NCBI RefSeq assembly: GCF_008370495.1
Contig: NZ_VTUX01000003.1
Span: forward strand, 62,001-126,000
From: Pseudohalioglobus sediminis
GTDB lineage: Bacteria > Pseudomonadota > Gammaproteobacteria > Pseudomonadales > Halieaceae
Reading direction: 5' to 3'
Length of the DNA: 64,000 nt
Part shown: piece by piece, positions 22,124 to 27,890 of the stretch
Numbering within the stretch: the stretch's first letter is position 1
Layout: each line of letters starts with the position of its first letter
Translations under genes and position numbers: made by a program
Notes under the pieces: generated by a model
Databases searched by the model: none
What the model saw: the letters and a program-made list of their open reading frames with translations, nothing else
Told to the model about the DNA's origin: nothing

Positions 22124-22738
22124 TCAGCTTGAGGAGGATCCCTGCGCGACGGTACCACGGGTGCCGGGTATCGGCAGTGCCCGCACCACCCTGCGCAGCG
22201 GACCATTGGCGCGGATTGCATCAAAGGGATAGCAGGTGACCAACAGTAACTGCTCTGGCGCGGACAACAGTGGCAGCCCCTGCCAACGGCTATCCACGGT
22301 GACGGCGTCCACCACGCGATAAGCATGAACGTCGCCAGAGGGTCGCTGCAAAACCAGGCGCATCTCCGGGCGCAGGTCCCGCAGGAAAGCGAAGTGGGTG
22401 TCCCGATGCCCGCTGACCAGCGTCACGCCCTCCTCTCCCGGCAGGCCCAATCCGCTGTCCAGTCCCGGGCCAAATGCCAGGGCATGTCCGCCATCTCCGT
22501 ACAGTATATGACGCGACACCTGCAACTTTGGCACCGAGAGCTGCGCCACCGGCCAGGTATCAGCCCAGGGCCACGGCCTGTGTGGCGCCCCGTCACTCGC
22601 CAGCGTCGCCGCCCACGCCCGCTCCACCAGTATCGGCGCCAGCCAGGCCTTGGCGTGAATCAGCCCCGCGCTCATGAATTGTTGCAGTGCCACAATGAGC
22701 ACCAGTGCCGCGACGAGTTTGAGGCCGCGGTCAGGCAT
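22124..22738 (-). CDS. class GN sortase (proteobacterial dedicated sortase)
   Basis: 204 residues from the ATG at 22738, with GGAAGG as ribosome site. A single N-terminal transmembrane helix (about 6-24) anchors the enzyme, with the catalytic domain in the periplasm. The sortase triad is present: His111 in VSGHRDTH, Cys169 in LLVTCYPFD and Arg182 in GPLRR. The TCYPFD context is that of the class GN enzymes found in marine proteobacteria, which are each paired with one target. That target is encoded immediately upstream with an 8-nt overlap. Sortases are rare in Gram-negative bacteria, and what this group attaches its target to is not known. Confidence 0.92.
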   Translation of the reverse strand: MPDRGLKLVAALVLIVALQQFMSAGLIHAKAWLAPILVERAWAATLASDGAPHRPWPWADTWPVAQLSVPKLQVSRHILYGDGGHALAFGPGLDSGLGLPGEEGVTLVSGHRDTHFAFLRDLRPEMRLVLQRPSGDVHAYRVVDAVTVDSRWQGLPLLSAPEQLLLVTCYPFDAIRANGPLRRVVRALPIPGTRGTVAQGSSSS

Positions 22739-24893
22739 AGCGACCTTCCTGTCTGCAGGCGTAAACCACGACTGCAAGCAACAGCAGCAAACAGCCAAAC
22801 CAGAGCTTGGCCGCAGCCGTGGTCGCGGTGCGTGCGAACGCATAGGGCTGTGGAGATTGCCCGGCCGGCCGGGTATTGGGCACAGCAGCGCTGCCGGTAT
22901 CGGCATCGTCTGGACGGGATATCACCTGTTCCACTGCGACAAAACTGGTGTAGGGGCTGAGCAACTGGTGCTGCAGGGCCAGGGCCAACACCTCGCCACG
23001 CACTGCGTCAGAACTCTCGCCGTGGCGCAGGGTACCCAGCAGTGACTGTATTTTCTTGCGTGCCCACAGCGATGCTACACCATCGTGACTGGAACCGGCC
23101 TGCTCCTTTGTTGCCCCGGGCCAGGGCACCCGGTTCTGCCAGTGCGTATTCGCCAGGCGACCACTAACCCGCAGCGCCTGCTGCGGCGGCGCGTCGTGCA
23201 ACCTGACGGCCAGCACCAGGGGCTCGCCGAGATAAAGATCGGGCACGCGCTGGGGCCAGACTTCTGCCCCTGCCGGCCAGTCGACCTCCAGGTCAACGGC
23301 AACCGGCGACGCCAGCTGCCGGAACAGGGCCGCCATTTTGCCCGCCACCTCACTGACCTGGCCTATGGCGGTAAAACTGCCACGGCCAAAATCGGCTGCA
23401 CGGCGCATAAACCAGCTGTTGGGCGCGGAGCCAATGGCCACGGTAAACAGCCGCGACGCTCCCAGCGAACTGGCAATCTCGCTGAACAAGGCATCTTCGT
23501 TGGCGACTGCACCATCAGTGATAAATACCACCTGGCGCAATGCCGGCTGCGGCGCAAGCTCGTCCGCGCTTACCGGGGACAGCAGTGCGGCACGCAGGGC
23601 CGACAGCATTTCGGTGCCCCCGGATGCCTGCAGGTGGCGGGTAAACTCCATCGCCAGCTGCAGGTTATGCGCTGTTGCCGGTCGCGCGCGGCTGAACAGG
23701 GCGCGGTGGCTGTCATTGAATTCAATGATATTGAAGGTATCTTCAGGACGCAGCCATTGCAGTGCACTCGACACACTGGCCCGCGCCTGGCGAATGGGCT
23801 CTCCGCCCATGGAGCCCGATGTATCCACTACCAACACAAGCTCCCTGGGCGGTGGACTGGGTGCGCGCTCTAGCTGCGGCGGTAGCACCATGAGTAAGCC
23901 ATACCATGCGTTGTCGACTCGCTCGGTAAACAGCGCAGCTGTGGGCGCTGCGCCGGTCACCGGGCGCCAGACCAACTCAAAGTCGCGATCCATCTCGGCC
24001 ACGCCGTCGGCCAGTTCCAGCTCATAAATTCGCTCGCGACGGGCGAGCGCAACGTCGTGATAGGTGGCCTCCACGCTCGCCAGGGGCATGCCCGCATCAA
24101 GGCGGACGCGAATGGATAGCGGGTTAAGCGGTTTTACGTTATTGCCCGGTTGGCGATGTTGCGGTGGCGACACCGCGTTTGCCTCCGCTACCTGATCGGT
24201 CGCCAGTGCCCAGCCGTGGCTGTTCAATTCGGTTACGCCATCTGCCGGCCCCCGCTCCAGCGGAACACCTGGGATATACCGGGCAGTAATGGTGGTAGGC
24301 AGGCGCAGGGAAAAGGTTCCAGCGCGATAGTCGACCTGCTGCACAAACTCCAGTGACACCAGGACCTCCTCCCCCGGGGCAATATTGGCGACTCGCGTGG
24401 TGAACAGGTTGGGGCGCTGCTGCTCGAGCAGGGACGCCTTCTTGCCCGCTTTGAGGGCAGCCTTATAGGTTGAGCGCGCGGCGGATTTCTCCTGTATCTG
24501 GCCGATAATGCGCCGCTCCCCCAACTGCATATGCATCGCCCTCACCGCGGCATTGCCGGGCAGTGGAAAGACGTAAACGCCTTCCATCCATTTCGCTGTG
24601 TCATTGCGAAACACCTGCTGCAGCCGGACCACTGCCACCATGCCCGCGATCTCCAGGTCGATTTCACTGCGCTGCATCACCGCGGGATGCGCAGTGCCTG
24701 CCGCATCGGATAACATCAACTGGCCACTGCCCACCCCTGCCAGGCTGCCCTGCTCGGCACGGGCCGTGGCGGCGGACAGCAGCAGTAAGGTCAGCATAGT
24801 CAGGAGTAAAGTTGGCAGGCAGCGAAAGATCAGCCACCAAGATAGTCCGCCAAAACGCCGCTGGTCACGCAGCAAACTCCGGTAAATCACCAT
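22731..24893 (-). CDS. marine proteobacterial sortase target protein (VIT and vWA domains)
   Basis: 720 residues. Signal peptide about 1-46; VIT (inter-alpha-trypsin inhibitor-like) domain about 55-190; von Willebrand A domain about 350-525 with a complete metal site (DTSGS at 357-361, Thr427, Asp460); then a beta-rich segment. The C-terminus has a hydrophobic helix (about 697-713) and a short charged tail (CRQEGRYA), that is a sorting signal. The best candidate cleavage motif is VPNTR at 671-675, about 22 residues before the helix, not a strict LPxTG. GAGAGG precedes the ATG. It overlaps the sortase gene by 8 nt and is divergent from the two-component genes. Expected to be a surface or periplasmic adhesin-like protein. 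Confidence 0.92.
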   Translation of the reverse strand: MVIYRSLLRDQRRFGGLSWWLIFRCLPTLLLTMLTLLLLSAATARAEQGSLAGVGSGQLMLSDAAGTAHPAVMQRSEIDLEIAGMVAVVRLQQVFRNDTAKWMEGVYVFPLPGNAAVRAMHMQLGERRIIGQIQEKSAARSTYKAALKAGKKASLLEQQRPNLFTTRVANIAPGEEVLVSLEFVQQVDYRAGTFSLRLPTTITARYIPGVPLERGPADGVTELNSHGWALATDQVAEANAVSPPQHRQPGNNVKPLNPLSIRVRLDAGMPLASVEATYHDVALARRERIYELELADGVAEMDRDFELVWRPVTGAAPTAALFTERVDNAWYGLLMVLPPQLERAPSPPPRELVLVVDTSGSMGGEPIRQARASVSSALQWLRPEDTFNIIEFNDSHRALFSRARPATAHNLQLAMEFTRHLQASGGTEMLSALRAALLSPVSADELAPQPALRQVVFITDGAVANEDALFSEIASSLGASRLFTVAIGSAPNSWFMRRAADFGRGSFTAIGQVSEVAGKMAALFRQLASPVAVDLEVDWPAGAEVWPQRVPDLYLGEPLVLAVRLHDAPPQQALRVSGRLANTHWQNRVPWPGATKEQAGSSHDGVASLWARKKIQSLLGTLRHGESSDAVRGEVLALALQHQLLSPYTSFVAVEQVISRPDDADTGSAAVPNTRPAGQSPQPYAFARTATTAAAKLWFGCLLLLLAVVVYACRQEGRYA

Positions 24894-25065
24894 AACGCCC
24901 TCTCTCCAAAATCATCGTGTCGAGATTACAGCGCAGCTTTGTGGCTGTAGAGGAGACGAAAAATGGCAAAGCGCTGGGCAATTGTGATGAATAGTGGCAA
25001 GCGCTTGAGCTGGTGGCCGTTATCTGGAACCATGCCATGTCACCCTTAAGCCCTGCCCACACGCC
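24894..25065. promoter_or_regulatory. divergent control region of the sortase system
   Basis: 172 bp between the target gene (minus) and the response regulator gene (plus). Two similar boxes, TGGCAAAGCGCT (24964-24975) and TGGCAAGCGCTT (24995-25006), are in direct orientation 31 bp apart, about three helical turns, so they lie on the same face. They are candidate binding sites of the OmpR-type regulator encoded next door. No strong sigma-70 boxes were recognised. Confidence 0.4.
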
Positions 25066-25755
25066 ATGTCGCAACATATCGCCATTGTCGAAGACGAGGC
25101 GGCCATAGCCGAAAATTATCGTGATCACCTGCGTCGCCAGGGCTTCAGAGTGTCCCTGTATGGCGACCGCAACTCGGCCGCGACGGCGTTTCGTGACCGT
25201 TTGCCCGACCTGGTCATCGTCGATATCGGACTGGGTGAAGAAATGGAAGGCGGATTCGACCTGTGCCGTGAACTGCGGGCGCGGTCGGCCACGCTGCCCA
25301 TCGTGTTCCTGACCGCCAGGGATTCCGAGCTCGACGAAATCTCCGGGCTGCGGCTCGGTGCAGACGAGTACCTCACCAAAGGCATATCCAATGCCCAGCT
25401 GCTGGCCCGCATACATGCCCTGCTACGCCGCGTGCGCGCCCTGACCGCGCCCGAGCGTGAGGAACAGCTGTTGCAACAGGGCGAGCTGGAAATGAACCTG
25501 GAACGCATGACCACATGCTGGCGCGGCAAGCCCGTGGACCTGACCGTCACCGAATTCTGGATGGTCAACGCCCTGGCCCTGCACCCGGGACATGTGAAAA
25601 GCCGGCAGCAGTTGATGGACAGCGCCGACGTGGTCCTGGACGACAACACCATCACGTCCCACATCAAGCGTATAAGACGCAAGTTTCTCCAGCACGACGA
25701 AAGCTTTGCCGCCATTGAAACCGCCTATGGCGTGGGTTACCGATGGAAAGGCTGA
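25066..25755 (+). CDS. OmpR-type response regulator of the dedicated sortase system
   Basis: 229 residues. Receiver domain 1-120 with the acidic pocket ED at 10-11, phospho-acceptor Asp53 (VDIGLGEEMEGG), Thr83 and Lys105. Winged-helix DNA-binding domain about 130-229, ending SFAAIETAYGVGYRWKG. The long loop after Asp53 is unusual compared with PhoB/OmpR and fits the regulator family dedicated to class GN sortases. The kinase gene overlaps the end by 13 nt. Probable role: control of the divergent target-sortase operon. Confidence 0.92.
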   Translation: MSQHIAIVEDEAAIAENYRDHLRRQGFRVSLYGDRNSAATAFRDRLPDLVIVDIGLGEEMEGGFDLCRELRARSATLPIVFLTARDSELDEISGLRLGADEYLTKGISNAQLLARIHALLRRVRALTAPEREEQLLQQGELEMNLERMTTCWRGKPVDLTVTEFWMVNALALHPGHVKSRQQLMDSADVVLDDNTITSHIKRIRRKFLQHDESFAAIETAYGVGYRWKG

Positions 25756-27890
25756 ACTTCAGCCTGCGCCGTCAGCTGATAATCGTTTCCCTGTTCCTGT
25801 TGACTCTGCCCTGGGCGGGCTGCCAGTTCATCAGGGAACTGGAGGATGCACTGGGTAATGCCCAGCAGCAGGCCCTGCGCGCTACCGCGGAGACGGTGGC
25901 GGCAATGGCCGGCGAGCGCCCCGGGCTCATCTACGTCGACCCAGAGCGAATGGCGGCGACAGATGCACCCGCGGCGCCGGTTTACGCCACGCCGGCAACA
26001 CAGCGCGTGGTGGTAGATGGCTACGCGGAGGAATGGGAAGACGTTGCACAACAAGCCTGGACATCATCGCAACAAGGCAGCGACCTCGTCGTGCGCACAC
26101 AGGCGGCGACGCAGGATGACAGGCTCTACCTGCTGCTCAAGGTGCACGATAGGCAGGTCGTTTATGACAACCCGGGTTTAACACGAGCCCCTAATGGTGA
26201 CCGGCTGCTGTTGCGCCTGTGGGCCGGTGGCGAACGCCAGGACTACGTGCTCACCACCGCCGCACCGGGGCGCCTGCAGGCAAGGAAAATCGGCGCCACA
26301 GCACCCGGTAGCGACGCGGCTGGCATTTGGGGCTACTGGCAGGACGCGCTGCACGGATACACGCTGGAGCTGGAACTGCCACTGCCGCTGACCGGGGAAC
26401 GACTGGGGTTTTTGGTGATCGACAGCGACGCTGCCAACCTGGCCTTCAACGAGCGCGGCCATGCCTCCGGTGACGAGAGCAGCAATTTTGTTGACCACAA
26501 CAATGCGCTCCCTGCAGCGAGAAGCACGGCGGGCAATATCAGCCCAGGGCAAGCAGGTGCCCCACCCTGGCTGATTCGCACTCCCCCTGCCGCTGCCATG
26601 GCATTATCCCCGTTCCGGGCCCAGACCTACTCCATACAGTTGCTGGACAATGCTGGCTGGGTAGTGGCGGACTTGCCGGCACCGGACGCTGCCGCGGGCA
26701 AATCCGATACCTTCTGGTTGTTGCGCTTCATCTACAGGAATATCCTGGCAGATGACCGACTGCCCTACCCTGACCCGGCGGAGCAGCCAGGAAAACTGGC
26801 TCCCGCAGAAGTCGACATGGCCCTTGGCGGCACTGCCACCAACCTGCGTTATCGCGATCCGTCCAGCAGCAACAGGCAACTGCGCGTCGCGGCCGTCCCG
26901 GTCAGGCACGGTGGGCAGGTTATCGGCGCGGTAATCACACGCCAGAGCAGTGAACAGTACCTGTCGCTGACCGACAAGGCCTTCAGCCGATTGCTCGGCT
27001 ACAGCGCCATCGCCATCGCCGTGGGTTCACTTGGCTTACTGGGCTACGCGACGCTGTTGTCCTGGCGCATCCGCAAATTGAGTCGCTCGGCCCAGGCTGT
27101 CATCGCCGCCGACGGGTCGATACGCGGTAGCTTCCCGCACAGCTCGGCGCCCGACGAAATCGGCGATCTCTCGCGGCGATACGCTGAACTGCTGCAACGC
27201 TTGCGCGAGTACAATGATTACCTGCGAACACTCAGTCGCAAGCTGGCACACGAGTTGCGCACGCCGATCGCGGTAATAGAAACCTCTCTTGAAAACCTGG
27301 AAGAAACCACCGCGAACCCGGCACAGGCCGGCACCTACCTCAATCGCGCAAGGCAGGGGCTGCATCGCCTGAACAGCATACTGGGCGCCATGAGCGAAGC
27401 CAGCAGGCTGGAGGAAAGCCTGTCACAGAACCCACTGGTGGAAACAGACCTGGTACCACTACTGCGGGAACTGGCAGAAGCCTACGGGGCGGTCTATCAC
27501 GATCACCCCGTGAAAGTGTCACTGCCGGAACAGGGCCAGGCCCGCGTGCTGGCAGCACCGGAACTGGTGGTGCAGTTGCTGGACAAACTGATGGACAACG
27601 CCGCGTCGTTCAGCCCGCAAGGAGAGCCACTGATACTCTCGCTAGATCGCGTCGAGGAACGCTGGCATATCTCGGTCAGTAATAGTGGGCCACTACTCCC
27701 TGCCGATGTGCACAGCACCCTGTTCGAACCGATGGTGTCACAGCGACCCGCGGACGACCCGCAGTTACACCTGGGTCTGGGGCTGCATATCGCCAGACTG
27801 ATCAGCGAGTACCTGGACGCAGAGATCAGCGCCGCCAATACCAGCACGCCACCCGGCGTCCGCATCACTGTCAGCCTGCCGGTGCTGTGA
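25743..27890 (+). CDS. sensor histidine kinase of the dedicated sortase system, carbohydrate-binding-like sensor domain
   Basis: 715 residues. TM1 about 10-27; a large periplasmic part (about 30-415); TM2 about 417-439; HAMP about 440-495; HisKA with His503 in LAHELRTPIA; HATPase with Asn619 (MDNAASF) and GLGLHIARL at 677-685. The periplasmic region begins with a CBM9/DOMON-like beta sandwich (about 88-235: VVDGYAEEWED ... DDRLYLLLKVHD ... GFLVIDSD), the type that binds sugars or haem in other proteins, then a PAS-like or Cache-like segment (about 290-400). Overlaps the regulator gene by 13 nt. A terminator follows. Confidence 0.92.
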   Translation: MERLNFSLRRQLIIVSLFLLTLPWAGCQFIRELEDALGNAQQQALRATAETVAAMAGERPGLIYVDPERMAATDAPAAPVYATPATQRVVVDGYAEEWEDVAQQAWTSSQQGSDLVVRTQAATQDDRLYLLLKVHDRQVVYDNPGLTRAPNGDRLLLRLWAGGERQDYVLTTAAPGRLQARKIGATAPGSDAAGIWGYWQDALHGYTLELELPLPLTGERLGFLVIDSDAANLAFNERGHASGDESSNFVDHNNALPAARSTAGNISPGQAGAPPWLIRTPPAAAMALSPFRAQTYSIQLLDNAGWVVADLPAPDAAAGKSDTFWLLRFIYRNILADDRLPYPDPAEQPGKLAPAEVDMALGGTATNLRYRDPSSSNRQLRVAAVPVRHGGQVIGAVITRQSSEQYLSLTDKAFSRLLGYSAIAIAVGSLGLLGYATLLSWRIRKLSRSAQAVIAADGSIRGSFPHSSAPDEIGDLSRRYAELLQRLREYNDYLRTLSRKLAHELRTPIAVIETSLENLEETTANPAQAGTYLNRARQGLHRLNSILGAMSEASRLEESLSQNPLVETDLVPLLRELAEAYGAVYHDHPVKVSLPEQGQARVLAAPELVVQLLDKLMDNAASFSPQGEPLILSLDRVEERWHISVSNSGPLLPADVHSTLFEPMVSQRPADDPQLHLGLGLHIARLISEYLDAEISAANTSTPPGVRITVSLPVL

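Follow-up and report, generated by a model that had tools for sequence, protein, structure and literature searches.

A Gram-negative sortase cassette in Pseudohalioglobus sediminis with a conserved candidate operator and a predicted CBM9-like sensor module

The closest functional parallel to the genes described here is, by analogy, the basI-srtC-sctR-sctS cluster of Bacillus anthracis, which combines a target with an LPNTA signal, a class D sortase and a two-component pair, and in which the target is attached to meso-diaminopimelate (m-Dpm) (PMC3297441). For Gram-negative bacteria, a 2023 paper calls the role of sortases unknown (PMC10581121). NCBIfam recognizes a "proteobacterial dedicated sortase system" of a class GN sortase (TIGR03784), a target (TIGR03788), a response regulator (TIGR03787), a histidine kinase (TIGR03785) and pdsO (TIGR03789). 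We analysed a 64,000-nucleotide stretch of Pseudohalioglobus sediminis (the window) that holds a cassette with the same four protein families: a target gene followed by a sortase gene and, divergently, a regulator gene followed by a kinase gene. By its family matches, the cassette is an instance of the NCBI system, a known kind to which this copy is newly added. It shares with the B. anthracis cluster a single xxxTA target, a sortase whose nearest class is D and a two-component pair, all in one cluster; it differs in that B. anthracis is a monoderm spore former and in that the window sortase scores far under the class D cut-offs.

All four reading frames were confirmed (Table 1). The sortase (176.8 bits against a curated cut-off of 158.25), the target (733.9 against 551.65) and the regulator (369.7 against 335.7) are members of their NCBIfam families. 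The kinase, at 534.7 bits, does not reach its cut-off of 612.2 and is homologous without being a strict member; 24 of the 51 genomes with a kinase match at E ≤ 1e-90 also lie below that cut-off. A first-pass annotation of this DNA had called the system complete, and while its four genes are present, pdsO has no match over its cut-off in the genome. This, the kinase score and the sorting motif FARTAT set the cassette apart from the NCBIfam system. The gene-level claims of that annotation held up. With its start placed at 22738 (Met57 of the longest open reading frame), the class GN sortase has a His111 that is invariant in a 74-sequence alignment and a Cys169 and Arg182 conserved at 90% or more, in a confidently predicted structure (pLDDT 94). 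Its gene overlaps that of the target by 8 bases, and the gene of the OmpR-type regulator overlaps that of the large sensor kinase by 13. By Pfam, the target has a VIT domain (residues 74–183) and a vWA domain (351–505), preceded by a signal peptide that we judged by eye to span about residues 1–46.

Comparison across 274 genomes of the class Gammaproteobacteria revealed a strict pairing of sortase and target. The two-component pair was called present if the kinase matched at E ≤ 1e-90 or the regulator at E ≤ 1e-75, and pdsO at E ≤ 1e-30; an absence at these thresholds may be a gap in a draft genome. The target was found over its cut-off in 37 genomes, and each of the 37 has a sortase match; in the window's own genus, the target is present in 8 of 8 genomes. 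Sortase matches occur in 40 genomes, three of which have no target over its cut-off: G211, with a sortase that exceeds the family cut-off, and G032 and G177, with sortases that fall short of it. G032 holds a target-like protein just below the cut-off (525.7 bits) on a different contig. The sortase gene lies immediately downstream of the target gene in 30 of 30 target loci, the window included, and a sortase is present in 75 of 80 named loci, the remaining five having contig ends within ~420 bases of the match; Microbulbifer and Gilvimarinus are among the carriers of both genes in this set. Beside the sortase-like proteins of G032 and G177 (L177:4898-5542 and L178:4063-4713), no recognized target lies within the stretch read; that of G032 has lost the catalytic-histidine motif (VRREG versus xxHRD) and kept the cysteine.

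The two-component pair is distributed differently. It was present in 53 genomes, 31 with the sortase and 22 without, and 9 of the 40 sortase genomes lack it. The strict co-inheritance of all four genes, which the first-pass annotation had proposed as a check and whose failure it had listed as a refutation, was accordingly rejected. Its interpretation as a whole is supported in part: the pairing of sortase and target upholds it, as does, for the regulatory inference, the candidate operator described below. The regulator gene is adjacent to the target gene in 25 of 79 named loci examined. pdsO was found in 19 genomes (5 over its cut-off), 18 of which have the pair and 12 the sortase; of 40 loci of the pair that were surveyed, 11 have a pdsO-type gene close by. 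Because sortase and target pair strictly and the pair often occurs without a sortase, this survey indicates that sortase and target form one unit and that the pair, often with pdsO, forms a second unit that frequently joins it; by these distributions the sortase is not the sole partner of the two-component pair, which is thus not a dedicated one. Near the pair in L126, L146, L148, L149 and L150 we also noted, by eye, a gene resembling penicillin-binding protein 1b, with pdsO between in three of these loci.

The target ends in FARTATTAAAKLWFGCLLLLLAVVVYACRQEGRYA, in which a hydrophobic stretch and then a short Arg-containing tail come after FARTAT. Comparison of 103 targets, the window's included, gave the consensus (L/Y/F)PxTAT: position 2 is Pro in 81 and Ala in 20; Thr stands at position 4 in 90, the other 13 having Gly; Ala stands at position 5 in 95, with Gly in 6; and position 6 is Thr in 87. 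The full xxxTAT occurs in 71. These counts derive from 104 distinct targets, L058 having yielded no motif by our rule, which takes the best-scoring hexamer before the hydrophobic stretch and is thus biased toward the consensus; targets were merged only if their last 60 residues were identical, some species are represented twice across two collections, and the targets of L040, L092 and L114, cut by contig ends, were dropped. An LPXTG domain has been described on three members of the target family (PMC3237569), where it is a reported, non-defining feature of TIGR03788 that other relatives also lack. An LPXTG signal was rejected here: strict LPxTG occurs in only 3 of the 103 targets. Six genus relatives carry YPxTATT, so that Phe-Ala at positions 1 and 2 is, in this comparison, the window's own deviation, although Ala at position 2 is common across the wider family. 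Following the LPNTA precedent, we predict a cut between Thr689 and Ala690, which makes the well-conserved Ala of position 5 the residue after the scissile Thr. In one genus mate (G276, L237:2922-4814) the target frame stops before the sorting signal; its sortase, regulator and kinase frames are open.

Outside its own family, the sortase matches class D models best (59 and 57 bits; class E reaches 26.5), and one of the best-matching class D models is specific for LPxTATN. A profile of the 74 homologues has as its best structure match 2ln7 (87 bits; next, 57), a B. anthracis class D sortase that prefers LPNTA (PMC4498605). Both the signal and the best sequence matches, compared in this way, resemble those of class D sortases. 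Class D membership by score was rejected, as the sortase lies far under the cut-offs, and the structure search was dropped as class D evidence since it did not separate the sortase classes.

The same genome has a second sortase-target pair at L157:6124-7497 (G000:C11, minus strand). Its sortase (265 aa) is class D-like, reaching 122 of the 140 bits that the LPxTATN-specific model requires, and its target, downstream of the sortase, has 188 aa, a signal-like start and a C-terminus of MPATASP, a hydrophobic stretch and RRRFS. This small target was found in 23 of 58 genomes (the own genome included) and in seven of eight within the genus.

We examined the divergent promoter region and found a direct repeat, CCACTATT-CA-TCACAATT, directed toward the target gene. 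Sites of OmpR/PhoB-type regulators are typically direct repeats of 10–11 bp. The only perfect match to YCAYWATTNNYCAYWATT in the 4.43-Mb genome is the cassette site, and the repeat is perfect in all seven genus loci that hold the region, the window included (L241 is the same stretch as training locus L039), with many flanking bases varying. The pattern was drawn from the window and loci L039, L040, L086 and L043; its fourth position and its 11-bp form were fixed after viewing the best matches in other upstream regions. Once loci with fewer than 120 bases before the regulator had been dropped, 71 were used, and exclusion of these five left 66 held-out loci, which are related by descent and not independent. 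Within 250 bases before the regulator, 45 of the 66 score at least 13/16 on the strand that points away from the regulator gene, against 3 on the other strand; the corresponding numbers are 28 and 0 at 14 or more, and 16 and 0 at 15 or more. Dinucleotide shuffles gave means of 7.1, 1.0 and 0.1 at these three thresholds, the largest value at 13 or more being 14 in 15 rounds. A scan of the region for consensus promoters gave nothing. Two other blocks in it, ATGGTTTCAAATA and CTCAAGCG, are conserved in the genus with few changes, and there are further GCCAY half-sites.

The repeat is also found where the regulator is not next to the target. Of the 37 genomes with a target, 36 had their target promoters scored, in sets of 30 and 6 (G145 was left out, and G088, which has no pair, offered too little sequence to count). 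A score of at least 14/16 was reached in 8 of 16 genomes in which the regulator is adjacent (window included), in 7 of 12 in which it lies on another contig, and in none of 7 without a pair (one-sided Fisher p = 0.012). "Another contig" in these draft assemblies means that the genes are not adjacent in the stretch read and may be distant on one chromosome. Among named loci, 13 of 25 target promoters with an adjacent regulator reach this score, as do 10 of 54 without (other strand, 1 of 54). The candidate operator is conserved in the shared promoter and recurs before targets that have the regulator on a different contig, which supports the first-pass proposal that the regulator controls expression of target and sortase; the latter occurrences suggest that it also acts in trans.

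A more stringent pattern gave seven sites in 6 of 49 pair genomes searched (of the 53, G001, G032, G177 and G270 were left out) and none in a reversed control. Five precede a target, a regulator or an OmpA-domain gene, the last of these in G036 and situated behind the kinase; the other two, both in G167, are upstream of an alpha-2-macroglobulin gene and of creD (L217:2394-5999 and L218:2390-3739). At locus L120 an OmpA-domain gene other than the pdsO type, with a perfect operator upstream, lies behind the kinase.

The best other match of the regulator is CreB (176.1 bits, missing its cut-off of 273); for the kinase it is ChvG (138.5 bits), with CreC second (131.5 bits, missing its cut-off of 356). 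Membership in CreBC was rejected because these cut-offs were missed, and the genome has no CreD match. CreBC is activated by loss of PBP4 (PMC2654508), and the lipid II-destroying colicin M induces the CreBC regulon (PMC3599342); on account of these responses, the relationship fits a peptidoglycan theme. Unlike CreBC, the window system has a sensor with a CBM9-like module. Pfam finds nothing over its cut-offs in the kinase ectodomain and lists no CBM9 match up to E = 10. In the structure predicted from 28 sequences (pLDDT 85), residues 78–280 resemble the CBM9 structures 7nwn (Z 15.8, rmsd 2.9, 162 residues aligned) and 1i82 (Z 14.9, rmsd 3.0, 163 residues), and CBM9 modules take Foldseek ranks 1–3. 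The surrounding part resembles the Cache domains of CitA (2j80; Z 14.0, rmsd 2.6, 118 residues) and WalK (Z 13.5, rmsd 3.6, 137 residues), the first Cache helix lying at about residues 32–60. According to this model, the ectodomain of the sensor consists of a Cache fold into which a CBM9-like fold is inserted. An ethylbenzene dehydrogenase subunit, 2ivf_C, which we take to be haem-binding, also matches the CBM9-like part (Z 12.4), so a sugar is only the favourite ligand; the periplasmic signal is perhaps a glycan or a wall fragment.

Our best explanation of the cassette as a whole, to which we give about an even chance, is a periplasmic protein-anchoring system controlled by a CreBC-related two-component pair. 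The target would leave the cytoplasm through Sec and stay in the inner membrane, retained there by the hydrophobic segment at its C-terminus, with its VIT/vWA part in the periplasm. The class GN sortase, presumably anchored in the membrane via its N-terminal helix, would cut FART|AT and transfer the threonine to an amine; by analogy with class D, the acceptor would most probably be the side-chain amine of m-Dpm, in lipid II or in the peptidoglycan stem. Put less specifically, the enzyme would cut one envelope protein and join it to something, probably the cell wall. The kinase may read a periplasmic signal via the CBM9-like module in its Cache domain, and the phosphorylated regulator would bind the candidate direct-repeat operator between the divergent gene pairs, switching on target and sortase as well as its own operon; it is probably through this short DNA site that the sensor-regulator pair turns the sortase system on. 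The full version, a regulated Gram-negative sortase pathway that fixes a VIT/vWA protein to periplasmic diaminopimelate, with a glycan-sensing CBM9-in-Cache kinase, a CreB-like regulator and an identified operator, is put forward tentatively, as somewhat short of an even chance.

Several observations weigh against this anchoring scheme. The sortase misses the class D cut-offs by far (NF033746, 59 versus 165 bits; NF058671, 56.6 versus 140); class D models are matched by all 74 homologues, yet class E models are matched by 70 and class C by 68; and in Foldseek searches with the sortase model, class E, C and A structures outrank class D. The window motif has lost the proline kept by six genus mates. 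At 13/16, the operator is missing from 21 of the 66 held-out loci and from 6 of the 16 target promoters with an adjacent regulator, and the no-pair control, at seven genomes, is small. With up to two mismatches, the own genome has 25 sites against 27 in a reversed control; since this is no excess, we claim no wider regulon there. Three sites in the window at up to three mismatches are likewise at chance level, and only the perfect match stands out. The 22 pair genomes without a sortase, and the six OmpA-type matches to pdsO in the own genome, all below the cut-off and none at E ≤ 1e-30, belong on the same side. So do the alternative tails found on homologues of the target, GlyGly-CTERM-like (L168–L174 and L176) or PEP-CTERM-like (L162 and L164), all judged by eye. 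Rhombosortase, an unrelated rhomboid enzyme with another motif, likewise processes a C-terminal tail of motif, helix and basic residues, including in homologues from this target family, and a glycerophosphoethanolamine group is added to the GlyGly-CTERM protein VesB (PMC6219818).

These tails and the VesB adduct would fit a sortase whose acceptor is a lipid with an amine, for example phosphatidylethanolamine, so that the target becomes lipid-anchored, possibly at the outer surface: in the VIT/vWA family such tails replace the sortase tail (see also PMC3237569), and differing tails on one protein family suggest a common destination. However, sortase-tailed and GlyGly-tailed homologues occur side by side in single genomes (G043, G126 and G137, for example), which suggests different fates; in the nearest class, the sortase that has been studied takes an amine of peptidoglycan as its acceptor (PMC3297441); and CreB, the nearest other relative of the regulator, belongs to a system that answers peptidoglycan damage (PMC2654508, PMC3599342). 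We consider a lipid acceptor rather unlikely. It is unlikely, too, that the sortase mainly hydrolyses the signal and frees the target into the periplasm, with no lasting covalent attachment. In favour of hydrolysis, the sequence names no acceptor, and no match in the genome passes the cut-off for pdsO, the OmpA-like partner; against it, the complete His-Cys-Arg triad and the sortase barrel are transpeptidase features.

On the regulatory side, the pair may be a general envelope system independent of the sortase, with sortase and target as one optional output and OmpA-like proteins as another, and we see this as an evenly balanced possibility. In its favour are the pair genomes that lack a sortase, where, of 21 regions before the regulator that could be scored, 13 have the operator at 13/16 or more (1 on the other strand), the pdsO-type genes near the pair, the OmpA-domain gene of L120 and the two sites of G167. 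Conversely, the only perfect operator in the window's genome sits in the cassette, and the creD site of G167 may belong to a different regulator. A general system is compatible with our best explanation and limits only the word "dedicated." The repeat itself could be some different conserved promoter element rather than the regulator's site: it was identified by comparison, the promoter has further conserved blocks in the genus, and named targets without an adjacent regulator also carry it. Against this, it keeps to one strand with respect to the regulator gene in the held-out loci, its form is the direct repeat of OmpR/PhoB-type sites, and the target promoters of the seven pair-less genomes are without it at 14/16; we hold such an element to be quite improbable.

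Table 1. Features of the cassette, in window positions
Feature	Position	Strand	Basis or remark
Class GN sortase, 204 aa	22124..22738	-	N-terminal hydrophobic helix, then sortase barrel
Sortase catalytic Arg182	22193-22195	-	
Sortase catalytic Cys169	22232-22234	-	
Sortase catalytic His111	22406-22408	-	
Target, VIT/vWA protein, 720 aa	22731..24893	-	NCBIfam, Pfam
Predicted sorting motif F686-A-R-T-A-T691	22821..22838	-	Comparison with relatives
Divergent promoter region, target/regulator intergenic	24894..25065	.	
Candidate operator CCACTATTCATCACAATT	24980..24997	-	Direct repeat YCAYWATT, 10-bp step, reads toward target gene
OmpR-type response regulator	25066..25755	+	Receiver 5-116, winged-helix domain 154-226
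Sensor histidine kinase, 715 aa	25743..27890	+	NCBIfam, Pfam
Kinase residues 78-280, CBM9-like beta-sandwich inserted in sensor domain	25974..26582	+	Predicted structure
Kinase residues 282-406, larger part of CitA/WalK-like Cache domain	26586..26960	+	Predicted structure
Kinase HisKA phospho-acceptor domain, residues 495-558	27225..27416	+	Pfam
Kinase HATPase_c domain, residues 607-714	27561..27884	+	Pfam

The cassette is flanked by genes that, by family matches only, encode a WS/DGAT-type acyltransferase, a PhaC-like protein and a sulfatase.

The literature we found bears out the first-pass statement that this gene set is known only as protein families. In open-licence full texts, the family names and accessions occur only in passing mentions (PMC10581121, PMC3237569, PMC6637203). 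No paper was found there for the names and accessions of the kinase, the regulator and pdsO or for CBM9 combined with a histidine kinase and a sensor domain, and the operator, the sensor fold and the xTAT consensus were not found in print within the same literature.

For this family of systems, the evidence narrows the acceptor to one favourite and gives a predicted cut site. It names a plausible ligand class for the sensor, and the 18-base operator is a likely switch for turning the genes on in a mutant or reporter strain. Two assumptions are corrected: the signal is not LPXTG, and the pair, judged by its distribution, is not dedicated to the sortase. If our explanation is true, the class D sortase operon of a monoderm, with a two-component system of its own, would have a diderm counterpart in this cassette.

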